A stretch of DNA of 64,000 nucleotides from Deefgea tanakiae (GTDB lineage: Bacteria > Pseudomonadota > Gammaproteobacteria > Burkholderiales > Chitinibacteraceae). This document shows positions 5,685-61,003 of this stretch, in pieces. Both the position numbers and the translations under genes were made by a program. The number at the start of each line of letters is the position of its first letter. The first letter of the stretch is position 1. Location of the stretch: assembly GCF_019665765.1 (NCBI RefSeq), contig NZ_CP081150.1:3286001-3350000 (forward strand). The letters run 5' to 3'. Under the pieces are notes generated by a model. It was not told the DNA's origin, made no database searches, and was given only the letters and a program-made list of their open reading frames with translations.

Positions 5685-8087
5685 GTGGCTCAACTATCAA
5701 AAGAACAAATTGGTAAAATGCATCGTTACTTTCAGGCAGCGAATTACCTGTCTGTAGGTCAGATTTATTTGCTCGACAACCCAATGTTGAAACAACCGCT
5801 GAAACGTGAGCACATTAAGCCACGTTTGTTGGGTCACTGGGGCACGACTCCGGGTTTGAACTTCATCTTCGTTCACGCCAATCGCGTTATTGTTGAGCGC
5901 GATGTATCAATGATTTACATCACTGGCCCTGGCCATGGTGGTCCTGGCTTTGTTGCCAACACTTGGATTGAAGGTTCATACGAAGAATTCTTCCCTGCGA
6001 TTGATCGCACTGAAGCAGGTATGCAACGCTTGTTCAAGCAATTCAGCTTCCCACGCGGCATACCTTCACACGTAGCGCCTGAAACTCCAGGTTCTATGCA
6101 CGAAGGTGGTGAATTGGGTTACAGCGTTTCACATGCCTACGGCGCAGCGTTGGACAATCCAGACCAAGTGGTAATCGCAGTGGTGGGTGACGGTGAAGCA
6201 GAAACTGGCCCATGCGCAGCATCTTGGCACTCGACTAAATACATTCACCCGATCAATGACGGTTTTGTATTGCCAATCTTGCATTTGAACGGCTACAAAA
6301 TTGCAAATCCAACACTTCTAGCCCGTATGGACAAAGAAGAAGTGACTGCATTGTTCACAGGTTACGGTTACGAGCCAATCTTCGTTGAATTGAAACAAGA
6401 AACATTTAACGACAAGTTAGAATCTTTTGACCAAATTCACCAAGACATGGCTGCGGCAATGGACTTGTGTATGGATAAATTTGCTGCGATTCGTGCTAAA
6501 GCTGAAGCCGAAGTGGCAGCAGGTCAACCGATCGTTCGCCCACGTTGGCCAATGATTGTAATGCGCACGCCAAAAGGCTGGACTGGCCCGAAAGAAATTA
6601 AAGGCAAAAAAGTAGAAGACTACTGGCGCAGCCACCAAGTTCCGTTCTCTGATATCGATGCAGAAAACGTGATCAACTTGGAAAACTGGATGCGTTCGTA
6701 CCAAGTTGAAACTTTGTTCAACGATGATGGTTCTGTGAAACAAGATATCGTTGATTTGGCACCAAAAGGTATCAAACGCTTCGGTTCTAACCCAATCGTG
6801 CACGGTCAAGTTTCGAAAGACCTGAAAATGCCTGACTTCCGTAACTACGAAGTGAAGTTTGCAAAACCAGGTACTGAAAATGCAGAAATGACTCGCGTTA
6901 TGGGTAATTTCCTAGCCGACGTGATGAAAGAAAACGAAGCTGAGAAAAACTTCCGCATTTTTGGCCCTGATGAAACCGCATCAAACCGTTGGAATGCAAC
7001 GATTGAGTATTCAGGTAAAACTTGGTTGGCGAATCACTTTGAAGTGGATGGCATCAACAAGAACGACAATCTGCAACAAGATGGTCGTGTAATGGAAATC
7101 TTGTCTGAGCACACTTGCCAAGGTTGGCTCGAGGCATACAACTTGACCGGTCGTCACGGCTTCTTTAGCTGCTACGAAGCGTTTATCCACGTGATTGATT
7201 CAATGTTTAACCAACACGCAAAATGGTTGAAAACAACGAAACACATCAACTGGCGTAAACCAATTCCGTCATTGAACTACTTATTGACTTCACACGTTTG
7301 GCGTCAAGACCACAACGGCTTCTCTCATCAAGATCCAGGTTTCTTGGATCACGTGATCAACAAGAAAGCTGAAGTGATTCGTGTGTACTTGCCAGCAGAT
7401 GCGAATACTTTGTTGTCGGTAACTGACCATGTATTGCGCTCACGCCACTATGTGAACGTGATCGTTGCGGGTAAACAACCTTGCTTGCAATACTTGACTA
7501 TGGACCAAGCGATTAAACACGCTACCACTGGTTTGGGTATCTGGGACTGGGCATCGAACGACCAAGGCGGCGAGCCAGATGTAGTTATGGCGTGTGCGGG
7601 TGAAATCCCAACAATGGAAGCATTGGCGGCAACTGATTTGTTGCGTCAACACTTCCCTGACTTGAAAATCCGCTTCGTTAACGTTTGCGATTTGATGACC
7701 TTGCAACCACAAGAAGAGCATCCACACGGCTTGTCGGACCGCGAATTTGACGCGATCTTCACGACTGACAAACCAGTGATGTTTGCCTTCCACGGCTACC
7801 CATGGTTGATTCACCGTCTGACTTACCGTCGTAACGGCCACAGCAATATCCATGCTCGTGGTTACATCGAAGAAGGCTCTACTTCGACACCGTTCGACAT
7901 GGTTGTAGTGAATCAGTTGGATCGTTTCAACTTGGCCATCGACGTGATTGATCGTGTACCGCAATTGCAAAAAATCGGTGCTCACGTTCGTCAAAAACTG
8001 GTTGGTAAACTCGTTGAGCATGCTGAATACATTGCTAAATACGGCGATGATATGGACGAAGTTAAAAACTGGAAATGGACTTACTAA
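5685..8087 (+). CDS. xfp: phosphoketolase (xylulose-5-phosphate/fructose-6-phosphate)
   Basis: A thiamine-diphosphate enzyme that cleaves xylulose-5-P (and often fructose-6-P) with phosphate to acetyl-phosphate plus a triose or tetrose phosphate. Its 800 residues are full family length. Visible signatures are [11 protein letters not shown] (about 50-60), GPGHGGPG (about 82-89) and the TPP/Mg segment [11 protein letters not shown] (about 166-176). The start is GTG 5685 with AGAAGAGG (5670-5677). Codon choice is strongly biased (GGT, CGT, AAC, GAA), resembling the ATP synthase genes and unlike the preceding kinase, which suggests very high expression. It is monocistronic: a terminator lies 40 bp downstream and a candidate FNR promoter upstream. 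An acetate kinase or phosphotransacetylase partner is not in the window. Confidence 0.95.
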
Positions 8088-8170: not shown

Positions 8171-8440
8171 TAGGCTCTGTTTACGTTTGTTTTCCACTCG
8201 CGTTTGTGCGGATTTTGGCCTGAAACAAGGCACGGAGCGCGAAGTGTAGTCATTCTACACAAGTGCTTCGTAACGCAGCGTAAGGCCAAAAGCCGCCAAA
8301 CCCTGAGGGCTGGGCGCTTTTCGAGGCGACACTGCGTTTACGAGCGCTCACATAGAATGACTATGAATCGCTTCCTACGCCTTGTTTCGCCTTGAAAATC
8401 GCTCCAGCGCGATGCGTAAAACAAACGTCAACAGAGCCTA
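8171..8440 (+). repeat. 270-bp structured repeat, copy 1
   Basis: A non-coding element of exactly 270 bp, also found at 32891 and 60734 in the same orientation. The ends are inverted repeats (GGCTCTGTTTACGTTTG at the left, its near-complement at the right with one mismatch) inside TA dinucleotides. Inside are a left module (8217-8287) with hairpin GTGTAG-TCATT-CTACAC and a right module (8325-8391) with CATAG-AATGA-CTATG; the right module is an inverted, diverged copy of the left. No transposase or convincing reading frame is present. It fills most of the gap between the xfp terminator and the next gene. Confidence 0.9.
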
Positions 8441-8549
8441 GATAAAATGAGCGCCAACTAAAGTAAAACCCCCGCAGCAGAGTGGCTCGCTCTCCGATAC
8501 AATGCTGCAAAGCAATAGTATTGCCAGACATTTTGAAAAGAGATTGAAC

Positions 8550-9350
8550 GTGTCCCAACCCAGCGAAACATTACAAGCTTTATGTGCTATTGCCCGCAAG
8601 GTGGCCGCCACCGAAGTGATGCCGCGCTATCAAAAAGTAGTCGCAGAAATCAAGCATGACGGTAGCTTGTTTACCGAAGCTGATTTGGCTGCGCAACAAG
8701 CGTTGCAACGGCTACTGCCTGCCTTAGTTGATTGTCCTGTGCTGGGCGAGGAGATGACGCAGGATGAGCAGGAAAAGCTGTGGGAAACCTGCACGGATGG
8801 CTTGTGGGTGGTCGATCCGATTGATGGCACCAGTAATTTCGCGCATGGATTGCCCTACTTTGCGGTATCGATCGCCTTGTTTCGCGCGCATCGCCCAGTG
8901 ATGGGGGTTGTGTATGTGCCAGTACTGGATGAGTGCTTTGCCGCCGAAGCAGGGCAGGGCGCTTGGTTAAATCAAGATCGCTTGCCGTTTTTGGGTGACG
9001 ATAAAAAATTAAAGCACGCGATGGCTGCCGTTGAAACTAAATGGTTGTCGGGTCATTTGGCGACGCGAATTGTGACCGTGAATCCCTATCATAGCCACCG
9101 AAACTACGGAGCCTCAACCATTGACTGGTGCTGGCTCGCGGCAGGGCGCACAGATGTCATGCTGCATGGTGCTCAGAAACTATGGGATTACGCCGCTGGG
9201 GTGTTGATCTTGCTGGAGTCGGGCGGGCAGGTGGGCTCTATTTTTCATGCAGACTATTGGCAAGAGAATCCATGGCACCGCAGCGCTGTCGCCGCACGGA
9301 CGCCATCACTCTATAAAGCCTGGCAAGCATGGGTACAAGCGAATAAGTAG
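8550..9350 (+). CDS. inositol monophosphatase family protein
   Basis: A Mg2+-dependent phosphatase of the IMPase/FBPase/CysQ superfamily. It shows the three metal-site motifs: GEEMT (about 80), VVDPIDGTSNFAHG (about 99-112) and WDYAAG (about 213-218). The GTG at 8550, preceded by AAAGAGA (8537-8543), gives 266 residues and is preferred over the upstream ATG at 8502, which lacks a ribosome-binding site. Substrate cannot be told from sequence: candidates are inositol-phosphate, histidinol-phosphate, or 3'-phosphoadenosine-5'-phosphate. It stands alone between repeat copy 1 and the convergent rlmJ gene. Confidence 0.88.
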   Translation: MSQPSETLQALCAIARKVAATEVMPRYQKVVAEIKHDGSLFTEADLAAQQALQRLLPALVDCPVLGEEMTQDEQEKLWETCTDGLWVVDPIDGTSNFAHGLPYFAVSIALFRAHRPVMGVVYVPVLDECFAAEAGQGAWLNQDRLPFLGDDKKLKHAMAAVETKWLSGHLATRIVTVNPYHSHRNYGASTIDWCWLAAGRTDVMLHGAQKLWDYAAGVLILLESGGQVGSIFHADYWQENPWHRSAVAARTPSLYKAWQAWVQANK

Positions 9351-32382: not shown

Positions 32383-32811
32383 ATGGCCATGAGCATGCGT
32401 GTGGACGTAGTTAGTGCTGAAGAACTGATCTACTCTGGTGCCGCTGAGTTTATCTCGGCGCCTGCCGATAAGGGTGAGATTGGTATCTTACCGCGGCACG
32501 CTCCGTTGCTGACCCGCATTCGCCCGGGCGCGATCCGTATTAAGATCGCAAACTCGAACGAAGATGATGTCATTCTGTTTGTTTCAGGTGGCATGCTCGA
32601 AGTTCAGCCGGATGTGGTTACGGTATTGGCCGACACTGCGATTCGTGGCGCTGACATTGACGAAGCAAAAGCGTTGGAAGCTAAACGCCGCGCTGAAGAA
32701 TCATTGAAAAATTATTCGACGTCGATGGACTTTGCTATGGCGCAGGCCGAATTGATGGATGCAGTAGCGAAACTCGCTGTTGTGTCGAAATTGAAACGGG
32801 GCGGCCACTAA
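32383..32811 (+). CDS. atpC: F1Fo ATP synthase subunit epsilon
   Basis: 142 residues. An N-terminal beta-sandwich with [19 protein letters not shown] is followed by a C-terminal two-helix inhibitory domain containing the [12 protein letters not shown] segment. Last gene of the operon, with a terminator 40 bp on. Confidence 0.96.
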
Positions 32812-32890: not shown

Positions 32891-33160
32891 CAGGGTCTGT
32901 TGACGTTTGGTTTGCGGATCGCGTTTGAGTGGCTTTGGGCCTGAAACAAGGCACGGTGCGCGTGACTTAGTCATTCTAAGTGAGCGCTTCGTAACGCAGT
33001 GTCAGGCCCAAAGCCGCCAAACCCGCAGGGCTGGGGCGCTTTTCGCGGCATCTCTTCGTTATTTCGTGCTCGAATAGCGGGCTATTGGTCGCACGAACTG
33101 CCTTGATCTGCCGCGAAAATCGCGCCAGCGCGACCGTAAACCAAACGTCAACAGACCCTA
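32891..33160 (+). repeat. 270-bp structured repeat, copy 2 (diverged)
   Basis: The same length and plan as copies 1 and 3 but clearly diverged. The termini are GGGTCTGTTGACGTTTGG and its exact complement. The left module (32938-33008) has hairpin ACTTAG-TCATT-CTAAGT and closing stem GGCTTTGGGCCTGA/TCAGGCCCAAAGCC. The right module (33047-33112) has TTTTCGCGGCA/TGCCGCGAAAA and inner AATAG-CGGG-CTATT. Changes relative to the other copies occur on both sides of each stem. It occupies most of the atpC-glmU gap; 33161-33263 holds only the glmU upstream sequence. Confidence 0.88.
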
Positions 33161-33263: not shown

Positions 33264-34637
33264 ATGAGTTCTGCATTAAACGTGGTGATTTTAGCGGCCG
33301 GACAAGGTAAGCGGATGTATTCAAGTCTGCCTAAAGTCTTACATCGTTTAGCAGGCAAACCTTTGGTTCAACACGTTATCGATACCGCACGGCAATTGCA
33401 GCCACAAAAAATGGTCATCGTGTATGGTCATGGCGGGGAACAAGTCCAAAAGCAATTGGAAGCTCAAGCCGATTTAGCGTGGGCACATCAGGCCGAGCAA
33501 CTTGGTACGGGGCATGCGCTTGCGCAAGCTATTCCACAATGCGTAGGTGGCATTACCCTGATGTTGTATGGTGATGTGCCACTCACACGTTTAGCCACCA
33601 TTCAGTCCTTGCTTGAGGCCAGTGCAGGCGACAAGCTTGGGATTCTGACTGATATTTTAGAAGACGCTACCGGCTACGGTCGTATCGTCCGCGATGCCGC
33701 TGGCAAGGTGACTTGCATCGTCGAGCAAAAAGATTGCACACGTGAGCAAGCGCAGATTGGTGAAATGAATACCGGCATTTTGGCCTTGCCGACAGCGCGC
33801 GTAGCGGGTTGGTTGTCGGAACTCAAAAATGACAACGCCCAAGGCGAGTATTACGCAACGGATTTGATCGCGCTTGCTGTGCGCGATGGCGTTGAAATCG
33901 CAACCGTGCAGCCACAAGATCATTGGGAAGCTGAGGGTATCAATAACAAATTACAGTTGGCGGGTTTAGAGCGTATTCACCAAGCTGAAATCGCCAAGTC
34001 TTTGCTGACCGCAGGCGTGGGCTTGGCTGACCCTGCGCGGATTGATGTTCGTGGTACGCTCAAACATGGTCAAGATGTGTTGATCGACGTGAATTGCGTG
34101 TTTGAAGGTGACGTTGTACTCGGTAAAGGCGTAACGATTGGTGCCAATTGCGTACTGAAAAACGTGACAATTGCCGATGGTGCGGTGATTCATCCCTTCT
34201 GCCATTTGGAAGACGCCGTAGTTGGTGCTGGCAGCTTGATCGGCCCATACGCGCGTTTGCGCCCTGGTGCAGAGTTGGCCGAGCAAGTGCATATTGGTAA
34301 CTTTGTCGAAGTTAAGAAATCAACGGTGGGCGTCGGCTCGAAAGTGAATCATCTGAGCTATATTGGCGATGCAAAAATTGGTACTGGCGTGAATGTGGGC
34401 GCAGGGACAATTACTTGCAATTACGACGGTGTGAATAAATTCACCACAGTGATTGAAGACAATGTTCGAATTGGTAGCAATAATTCGCTCGTAGCACCTG
34501 TCACGATTGGTGCTGGTGCGACAACGGGCGCTGGTTCGGTGATCACTAAAGATGCGCCGGCTAATGCGTTGACGATTGCACGTGCCAAGCAACTCACGCT
34601 CAGTGGCTGGCAACGTCCCACAAAAATTACAAAATAA
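33264..34637 (+). CDS. glmU: bifunctional UDP-N-acetylglucosamine pyrophosphorylase / glucosamine-1-phosphate acetyltransferase
   Basis: Makes UDP-GlcNAc for peptidoglycan and LPS. 457 residues. The N-terminal uridyltransferase has [21 protein letters not shown] (residues 7-27, core LAAGQGKRM), QLGTGHAL and MLYGDVPL. The C-terminal left-handed beta-helix has hexapeptide repeats and the acetyltransferase residues around GNFVEVKKS and [12 protein letters not shown] (about 350-372). It starts downstream of repeat copy 2, probably from its own promoter. Confidence 0.97.
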
Positions 34638-59495: not shown

Positions 59496-59814
59496 AAAAG
59501 AGCTCCTGTGATTGATGTATACGGCTGTAGCCAATATTTAATATGGATTACAAGGCAATACTAATGTTTTTTATCGGCGAGCGATGTCATGCGATGACAG
59601 GCATTATGCCAGATTCAGCTATGCCGATGGGCGATGCGCCCAACTCGTCAGCCGCTTAGAGCGATTAATAGTACTTTCACCCATTTGGCATCGTTCGATG
59701 CAAGTCACATCGTTCCGCGCTAGAATCGGCGATTACTCAAATGATTCGCACTGAGAGTGCGTTTGCGGCGCCAAGCGGCGAATGGCCGTAAAAAATATAG
59801 GAAGAGAGATACGC

Positions 59815-60729
59815 ATGTTTGAAACACTGATAGCGATTATTGCCGCGATTGCGATTTTTTTGTACGCACTCGAGGGTTTTAGTCGGGAATTACAAGCCGT
59901 TGGTGGCGATACGTTGCAAGATTGGCTCGGTAAGGTCACGTCCAATCGTTGGGCGGGATTTGCAGTTGGTGCATTTGCGACAGCCATTTTGCAATCGAGT
60001 AGCGCGGTGTCTTCGTTGACGACGGCCTTGGTGAATGCGTCGGTGATTTCGTTTCGCGCGAGCTTGGGGGTGTTGCTCGGCGCCAATGTGGGTACGACGG
60101 CTACAGCGTGGTTGGTGTCGTTTAAATTGACAGAAATTGGTCCGATTTTTATTGCTCTAGGGGCGTTAGTTTCCTTATTGCCGAAACGCTACGGTCAATT
60201 TGGTCGTTCGCTATTTTATTTCGGGATGATTTTTGCTGCGCTGGATTTAATTTCTCGTGCAGTGATGCCGCTACGAGAATTACCTGCGGTGATGGATTTG
60301 ATGGCGCAAGCCAATTCGCCCTTGGTTGGCGTGTTAGCGGGGATTGTGATTACCGCGATTGTGCAATCGAGTAGTGTGACCACCGGTTTGGCGATTTTAT
60401 TTGTTCAGCAAGGCTTCTTGCCGCCGCAAGCAGCGATTGCGATTGCGCTGGGCGCTAATGTAGGCTCGACATCGACCGCCTTGATTGCCAGCATGGGTAT
60501 GAGCGCGATTGCGAAGAAAACTGCGTATTACAATTTCTTGTTCAAAGGCGTTGGGCTTTTGATCTTTTTCCCATTTATCGCTCTGATGTCGAATCAACTC
60601 ACTCAACATATTAGCGATACCGGCCAAGTCGTCGCCGCCGCGCATTTGATTTTTAATTTAACGATTTCACTGATGTTCTTAATGTTGCTTGATCCGATTT
60701 TGAAGTTTTCAGAACGAAAAATACATTAA
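59815..60729 (+). CDS. Na/Pi cotransporter family protein (NptA-like), short form
   Basis: 304 residues from ATG 59815, preceded by AGGAAGAGAG; an ATG 11 codons earlier is rejected. The two inverted-repeat halves each carry the QSSS motif of the family: AILQSSSAVSSLTTAL (about 59-74) and AIVQSSSVTTGLAIL (about 183-197). GANVGTTATAW and GANVGSTSTAL are the matching second motifs. It lacks the C-terminal PhoU-like domain of longer NptA proteins. Likely inner-membrane phosphate import or export coupled to sodium. Confidence 0.9.
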   Translation: MFETLIAIIAAIAIFLYALEGFSRELQAVGGDTLQDWLGKVTSNRWAGFAVGAFATAILQSSSAVSSLTTALVNASVISFRASLGVLLGANVGTTATAWLVSFKLTEIGPIFIALGALVSLLPKRYGQFGRSLFYFGMIFAALDLISRAVMPLRELPAVMDLMAQANSPLVGVLAGIVITAIVQSSSVTTGLAILFVQQGFLPPQAAIAIALGANVGSTSTALIASMGMSAIAKKTAYYNFLFKGVGLLIFFPFIALMSNQLTQHISDTGQVVAAAHLIFNLTISLMFLMLLDPILKFSERKIH

Positions 60730-60733
60730 GAAT

Positions 60734-61003
60734 TAGGCTCTGTTGACGTTTGTTTTGCACTCGCGTTTGTGCGTATTTTGGCCTGAAACAAGGCACGGAG
60801 CGCGAAGTGTAGTCATTCTACACAAGTGCTTCGTAACGCAGTGTCAGGCCAAAAGCCGCCAAACCTTGAGGGCTGGGCGCTTTTCGAGGCGACACTGCGT
60901 TGTAGAAAGCTCACATAGAATGACTATGAATCGCTTCCTACGCCTTGTTTCGCCTCGAAAATCGCTCCAGCGCGATGCGTAAAACAAACGTCAACAGAGC
61001 CTA
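60734..61003 (+). repeat. 270-bp structured repeat, copy 3
   Basis: The most symmetric copy. GGCTCTGTTGACGTTTG at the left and its exact complement at the right; left module 60780-60850 closed by TTTTGGCCTGA/TCAGGCCAAAA; right module 60888-60954 closed by TTTTCGAGGCGA/TCGCCTCGAAAA. By eye it differs from copy 1 at roughly 20 positions. It begins four bases after the Na/Pi stop codon and ends 17 bp before a terminator. Confidence 0.9.

Follow-up and report, generated by a model that had tools for sequence, protein, structure and literature searches.

Three 270-bp repeats in the genome of Deefgea tanakiae are insertions of a real mobile element, which is a MITE by the features tested. It is probable that this MITE is moved in trans by IS5-type transposases and is built around a selected, portable double-hairpin core. 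MITEs are usually regarded as gutted copies of one insertion sequence (IS). In this element it is the interior that is conserved and widespread, with matches in 134 of 369 genomes, and it is joined with several kinds of transposon ends. The core, detected in roughly one third of the sampled related bacteria, suggests a widespread hitch-hiking DNA module, and the role of a non-coding interior in a mobile element becomes testable.

Insertion sites in Deefgea

Sequence comparison within the window, i.e. the whole 64-kb stretch of D. tanakiae DNA that was analyzed, located three copies of exactly 270 bp each, in agreement with the initial annotation. Copies 1 and 3 are 96% identical, whereas copy 2 shares 77% identity with copy 1. 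The copies and their parts are listed below; bit scores refer to covariance model R1.

8171-8440, no strand assigned: copy 1, whole element with TA at both ends, between the genes for phosphoketolase (XFP, 5685-8087) and inositol monophosphatase (8502-9350), 3' of a terminator-like hairpin
8173-8189, + strand: copy 1, left terminal inverted repeat, consensus with 1 mismatch
8190-8305, + strand: copy 1, hairpin B (left monomer), 113.5 bits
8305-8420, - strand: copy 1, hairpin C (right monomer, inverted), 100.7 bits
8422-8438, - strand: copy 1, right terminal inverted repeat
32891-33160, no strand assigned: copy 2, whole element with CA on the left and TA on the right, between the ATP synthase epsilon-chain gene (32383-32811) and a nucleotidyltransferase/hexapeptide gene (33264-34637) that we take to be glmU
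32893-32909, + strand: copy 2, left terminal inverted repeat
32911-33026, + strand: copy 2, hairpin B, 115.7 bits
33027-33141, - strand: copy 2, hairpin C, 94.4 bits
33142-33158, - strand: copy 2, right terminal inverted repeat
60734-61003, no strand assigned: copy 3, whole element, starting 4 bp past the stop codon of a Na/Pi-cotransporter gene (59782-60729), with a terminator-like hairpin after the copy
60736-60752, + strand: copy 3, left terminal inverted repeat
60753-60868, + strand: copy 3, hairpin B, 112.4 bits
60868-60983, - strand: copy 3, hairpin C, 118 bits
60985-61001, - strand: copy 3, right terminal inverted repeat

The element ends are 17-bp inverted repeats of the types GGCTCTGTTTACGTTTG, GGGTCTGTTGACGTTTG and GGCTCTGTTGACGTTTG. 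As first described, they are flanked by TA or CA, the latter only to the left of copy 2. No open reading frame (ORF) of at least 80 amino acids in the ORF list of the window overlaps any of the three copies, consistent with the annotated lack of coding capacity, and all three adjoin gene ends or terminator-like hairpins, so that their placement in gaps after a gene or its terminator also holds. The copies do have the same orientation as read, but this part of the annotation carries little meaning, since copies 1 and 3 resemble their own reverse complements (72% and 71% identity, respectively).

A DNA similarity search of the own genome (3.56 Mb) at an E-value of 0.001 detected no places besides these three, which lie within 53 kb of one another. 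For three random points such clustering has a post hoc probability of about 6.5e-4. Model R1 gave seven matches in the own genome; the six among the matches listed are the halves of the three copies, and within the window these six half-elements were the only matches up to an E-value of 1. At G000:C1:3411189-3411240, 64 kb beyond the third copy, there is a 52-bp hairpin whose ends are similar (2 mismatches).

Deefgea belongs to the Chitinibacteraceae, Neisseriales, in the NCBI taxonomy. When copy 3 was searched in 61 genomes, 18 had matches, including all 7 of the genus Deefgea. Each of the six other Deefgea genomes examined contains dispersed copies; they gave 19-26 matches each, which are not copy numbers, as both strands were counted and the best 12 candidates scored. 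With up to 1 mismatch allowed, the 17-bp end was counted 8 to 57 times per genome in 10 related genomes, compared to 0 occurrences of the reversed control pattern in 10/10. Hence, the family is not confined to the three places in the window.

Sites 1 and 2 lack the element in 6/6 congeners. For site 3 the neighboring gene was found in 3/6, all of them without the element, and of these G006 retains a comparable gene-adjacent sequence. A single TA, for which the initial annotation had proposed to check empty sites, is present at site 1 in G001 and G003 and at site 2 in G006, while site 1 of G006 has TG. Around site 1 the sequence is ...GGTTAGATGG... in G001 versus ...CCTTA[element]TAGATAA... in D. 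tanakiae, and around site 2 it is ...TTGCTAGGCGAGCATGACAG... in G006 versus ...ACTCA[element]TAGGGCATGACAG... in D. tanakiae. The empty sequence of site 3 is too diverged for a TA to be recognized. In G005 and G002 the site-1 gap contains, elsewhere in the gap, a mini-hairpin of ~60 bp with related ends, where G001 and G003 have a single TA. The empty sites and the mini-hairpin insertion therefore indicate movement in Deefgea, either of the element itself or of its small relatives, and show that the sites are not fixed regulatory regions. With copies dispersed in the genus, sites empty in the congeners examined, a TA-type target and the ends of an IS5-family IS (see below), the MITE-like mobile element proposed in the initial annotation is substantiated, and the possibility that relatives always carry it at these positions did not hold.

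A separate arrangement was seen in G003 (L065, 860-1000), where two direct copies and one inverted copy of the end form a 62-bp hairpin beside a further copy of the 17-bp end.

Element ends and IS5-family insertion sequences

A scan of GTDB species genomes with a 20-base end pattern yielded 99 stretches from 27 genomes (tallied by record title), which belong to Deefgea, Chitinibacter, Pseudomonas, Agitococcus, Halomonas, Aeromonas, Salinisphaera and one more gammaproteobacterial MAG. The element ends match the ends of IS5-family IS of ~857 bp at 16 of 17 bp. The stretch from Halomonas sp. SpR1 (L173, 1218-2073) is such an IS of 856 bp and not a MITE. Its IS5-family transposase (NF033580, PF13340) is split into two ORFs of 120 and 74 amino acids, and TA is found at one end only. 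Among 43 family genomes, six gave any match to the first of these ORFs at an E-value of 0.001, and strong relatives, with E below 1e-20, were confined to G062 and G064. The G062 IS encodes a transposase ORF of 249 amino acids. TA followed by GGGTCTGTTGACGTTTC is present at both IS ends in 11/11 G062 loci examined and in 2/3 places in G064, the third having one further mismatch at one end. Relatives of the IS are also located on plasmids; one copy is annotated as ISPa67 and has the ends GGGTCTGTTGCCGTTTT and GGGTCTGTTGCCATTTC, and the Azotobacter plasmid pAcX50f carries an IS of this type together with a copy of the MITE. The related ISAba31 is described as 858 bp long with ends GGGTGTGTTGACACTT / AAGTGTCAACAGACCC and a 2-bp duplication (PMC4776018), and an IS of the IS427 group is reported to have duplicated TA on capture (PMC4133298).

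From these likenesses we infer mobilization in trans. An IS5-family transposase (NF033580; IS427-like) supplied in trans would recognize the 17-bp ends, cut the element and re-insert it at the TA within Y-TA-R sites, thereby duplicating the TA. One result counts against this proposal: a search with the Halomonas transposase ORF at an E-value of 0.001 found no matching IS5-family IS in 7/7 Deefgea genomes. A transposase with matching ends, for which the initial annotation had proposed to look, is available outside Deefgea, but none was found within the genus, where the mover is lost, was missed or resides on plasmids.

In a comparison of five elements with five IS, similarity is essentially limited to the outermost 16-21 bp, and what matches in the interior is short, scattered and weak (best E-value 0.038). 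With similarity limited to the ends, the element does not seem to have arisen from these IS by deletion.

Other candidate movers were rejected. For the IS630/mariner type, no DDE_3 match was detected in G000-G006, and the IS630-type loci examined elsewhere do not have these ends. Among 30 loci of IS with PF01609 transposases (of 36 matches listed, ten genomes), none is bracketed by an element-like end pair; many of them have ends of the GGCTTTGTTGCACAAAT type. Two long inverted end pairs in G003 (1407 and 2383 bp) were considered as IS, but no transposase was recognized by eye among their ORFs. Apart from this, G001 holds ten copies of a PF01609 IS with identical scores (L141, L147, L152, L155, L158, L161, L163, L165, L167 and L169), whose GGCTTTGTTGCACAAAT ends are unrelated to the element.

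The double-hairpin core

We compared 96 non-redundant end pairings of up to 330 bp from the loci examined, where one place can yield two pairings. Their length is nearly fixed, with 64 of them at 263-267 bp; the others measure 48-85 bp (13), 115-188 bp (8), 256 bp (1), 269-273 bp (2), 281 bp (3) and 297-314 bp (5). The 67 pairings of 255-275 bp fall into six groups (single linkage, 70% interior identity), between which interior identity averages 51-67%, compared to 46% for shuffled sequences. Short hairpins of 48-57 bp with the same ends exist as well, and one of them looks inserted. This counts against a required core, which may be dispensable for movement.

The whole-element fold of copy 1 has an energy of -136.7 kcal/mol (z = -11.6) and that of copy 3, calculated with DNA parameters, a z-score of -11.2; in both cases 0/200 shuffles equalled it. 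The best single-sequence fold of copy 1 is one long hairpin, because its two halves resemble each other inverted. In the Agitococcus copies the halves are only 43-49% complementary to each other (shuffled arms 47%) and each half forms its own hairpin. Consequently, two hairpins between paired ends are the feature common to all groups examined. The interior consists of two imperfect ~116-nt hairpins that are inverted relative to each other; both contain a small apical hairpin and a conserved internal loop in which CAAGGC faces AACGC. By eye, four half-elements in G003 (L066, L079, L080 and L082) extend from one end to the center and stop at CCC-TA, as if the center can act as an end.

For covariation analysis, 29 of 134 halves were chosen at <80% identity; four off-center ones were dropped and two were added, giving 27 aligned monomers. 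Compensatory changes are found in 35/36 of their pairs. The proportion of paired cells is 90.2% (30.3-42.2% when the pairing is slid, 60.8% when shuffled), double-change cells number 280 (52-89 slid, 81 shuffled) and the covariation score is 0.766 (0.22 shuffled). In 83 monomers fitted to the model, 90.7% of cells are paired and 952 are double-change cells, compared to 175-300 when slid. Changes on both sides occur in 35 pairs, a number reached by 14/500 shuffles; the other measures were reached by none. Although the 83 monomers have a mean identity of 51%, each letter of CAAGGC and AACGC is retained in at least 80% of them. This strong compensatory covariation, together with the near-fixed length, is in line with the constraint on structure or length suspected in the initial annotation. 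Wobble pairs were counted in 27/36 pairs (helix 2 and one pair dropped): G-T occurs in 70 and A-C in 32 of 2226 cells. At columns 65/119 of alignment A4, in the apical hairpin, 41/82 cells are G-U when the monomers are read from the end inwards.

The core is not restricted to Deefgea and its relatives. GTDB Gammaproteobacteria take in both Neisseriales kin and Pseudomonas, and 369 genomes were drawn evenly from this class, own genome included. Model R1 matched 134 of them from 105/272 genera at an E-value of 0.001 or better, with the best ten candidates per genome scored. The covariance search in relatives that the initial annotation had recommended thus led far beyond the Chitinibacteraceae, and the spread of the core over the class with several kinds of ends goes further than anything it had claimed. 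At 29 loci from the best-scoring genomes both inverted halves are present in 24, with a span of 228-233 bp in 19/24. End types distinguished by eye are the ISPa67 type (with variants GGGCCTGTTGCCGTTTC and GGGCCTGTTGAGGTTTC), GGGCCTGTTAACACTA, AGAGCCTATCCATGAATA, AGAACCTATCTCAGAATCC, GGGAGACGCTGATTTAA and AGGAACCTCTGGTTAATT, and GGGACTGTTCTCAATGAG. No clear end pair was seen at L325, L330, L343, L344 and L347, and L340 has an imperfect pair.

Identity reaches 85% when cores bounded by AGAGCCTATCC-type ends are compared with those bounded by GGGCCTGTTAA-type ends from another family. For 62/83 monomers the nearest relative has the same end type. Monomers of one type have a mean identity of 0.573, compared to 0.548 across types; end types were assigned by hand, and unlisted loci were counted as ISPa67 type. 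For the most part, therefore, a core stays with its end type, though the association is not strict, and the simplest reading is occasional swapping or a rapid turnover of ends. A PF13340 match is present in 9/27 core-bearing genomes, a low share that counts against IS5-type mobilization. IS ends GGGCGTGTTAACACTA (G188) and GGGCGTGTTGCCGTTT (G237) are one letter off the GGGCCTGTTAACACTA and GGGCCTGTTGCCGTTT types, respectively, seen in other genomes; the end of the G237 element itself differs more from the G237 IS end. For the types AGAGCCTATCC, AGAACCTATCTC, GGGAGACGCTG and GGGACTGTTCTC, no IS with the same ends was found, and at the PF13340 IS loci of G343, G235, G087 and G050 the element ends of the own genome were not found with up to 5 mismatches.

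Palindromes get evened out by template switching. The element might be no more than a plain MITE that parasitizes one IS5-family IS, with its long palindrome kept only by mutation bias (arm-to-arm copying in replication) and by copying of master elements, around a functionless core. The low number of G-T cells is expected from arm copying, and shorter size classes and the predominant linkage of core to end type fit as well. Indeed, arm pairing could be maintained in this way without selection, which counts against our preferred reading. However, arm-to-arm copying explains complementarity and not the preserved mismatched loop, which it would erase. Neither similar cores between different ends nor a length held mostly at 263-267 bp by groups with such divergent interiors is expected of a plain MITE, and we consider this explanation unlikely.

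It is also possible that the core acts as RNA, either as a mobile small RNA or as an mRNA 3'-end element such as an RNase III substrate, with selection on the transcript. Compensatory changes around a conserved loop are typical of RNA, and copy 3, located between a stop codon and a terminator-like hairpin, may be co-transcribed. The same motif, however, is present on both strands of the inverted dimer, so that no single transcript reads the two halves alike. Wobble pairs tell in both directions: G-T outnumbers A-C two to one and the pair at columns 65/119 is G-U in half of the cells, but elsewhere wobble pairs are few. No Rfam 15 family matched the element at the gathering score in the window and 20/29 class-wide loci. 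Taken together, a structured RNA appears unlikely. The third explanation, a regulatory or terminator region conserved at the three loci, could appeal to the gene ends and terminator-like hairpins beside all three copies, but the congeners examined, whose sites are empty, and the dispersed copies elsewhere refute it, and we practically dismiss it.

We therefore return to the MITE moved in trans around a selected core. The core, which is not IS sequence, would be kept by selection on its folded or palindromic form and would be portable, as the same core is located between different transposon end types across the class. An action at the DNA level is favored because wobble pairs are rare and the inverted dimer shows the same motif on both strands. 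Most likely, the core would be a cruciform-forming or host-protein-binding module that aids transposition or persistence with any compatible transposase, and the element would benefit from it.

Relation to known repeats

Deefgea copy 3 has no match in the plasmid or phage collections. A Pseudomonas copy matches four plasmid records and no phage, and the class-wide copies L323 and L321 match the same four records only partially. Neither the E. coli collection nor the phages contain a match to L323, phages contain none to the G062 IS, and viral_contigs has no exact match to the element end. Among the literature titles and abstract openings listed, some of them the first entries of longer lists, none described the element, which does not establish its absence from print. 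A repeat family of ~287 bp, Pae-2, is listed in PMC2267715. Models R1 and R2 provide one annotation model for intergenic repeats without Rfam coverage.

Several known systems share single features with the element. CIR repeats of Caulobacter and Brucella are described as two hairpin arms with a linker, but they have GANTC at a loop and are listed without terminal inverted repeats (PMC2229807). The Tn3-derived TIMEs of Pseudomonas are likewise non-coding and folded, with 262 bp and four isoforms, but differ in their 38-bp Tn3-type ends and duplications of 5-6 bp (PMC4133298). The IS5-family IS of the ISPa67/ISAba31 type (NF033580, PF13340) have GGGTCTGTTGACGTTT-like ends with TA flanks, as does the element, but encode a transposase and lack clear similarity to its interior. 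REPIN/RAYT systems consist of pairs of REPs of 20-40 bp with a GTAG or CGTC tag and a Y1 transposase, in contrast to the 17-bp ends, TA flanks and 116-nt hairpins found here.

A further comparison is offered by the Correia repeat, the first bacterial MITE described. In its core, CAAGGC and AACGC are spaced almost as in the core of the element. Correia/NEMIS (CREE) repeats of Neisseria are also TA-flanked non-coding hairpin MITEs, from the same order as Deefgea. The ends are not shared: those of Correia are TATAGTGGATTAA and those of the element differ. As a test set, 13 IMG/VR stretches (108 kb) were retrieved with a 25-base Correia piece, which includes AAGGC but not AACGC. Model R1 gave only two matches in this set (E-values 0.084 and 0.94), both of them Correia copies in register. 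With model R2 the best three matches (E-values 0.00031, 0.012 and 0.28; top score 29.0 bits, E-values rough) are Correia in register, with CAAGGC aligned to CAAGGC and AACGC to AACGC of the Correia core. The fourth R2 match (E 3.4) is not Correia, and up to an E-value of 5 Correia copies were reported in only 3/13 loci, namely the short-type copies L376 and L384 and the long-type copy L379; other long-type copies, which have an apical insertion, were not reported. With filters off in two loci, the best match was Correia (E 5e-5), while a second short copy ranked fourth, below two other places. A strict motif search (CAAGGC, 36-56 bases, AACGC) of the 108 kb returned three matches, none of them the Correia core in register, and 8/30 shuffles of the window had one match each. 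The strict motif therefore lends kinship no support.

Based on the weak in-register matches, kinship to the Correia element is likely but not proven. Correia repeats differ as single hairpins of most often 104-108 or 153-157 bp with other ends, some copies contain an IHF site, and the mobilizing mechanism is reported as undetermined (PMC2649163). Tentatively, and with rather less confidence than in mobilization around a selected core, we propose that the double hairpin may be an independent, old and selfish DNA module of the class, carried between several transposon end types and occasionally passed between them. Its loop and spacing might be read as folded DNA by a host or transposition factor, and Correia might be its single-hairpin branch. 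The module is thus a candidate origin for the Correia core, whose origin would be explained if the proposal is true.
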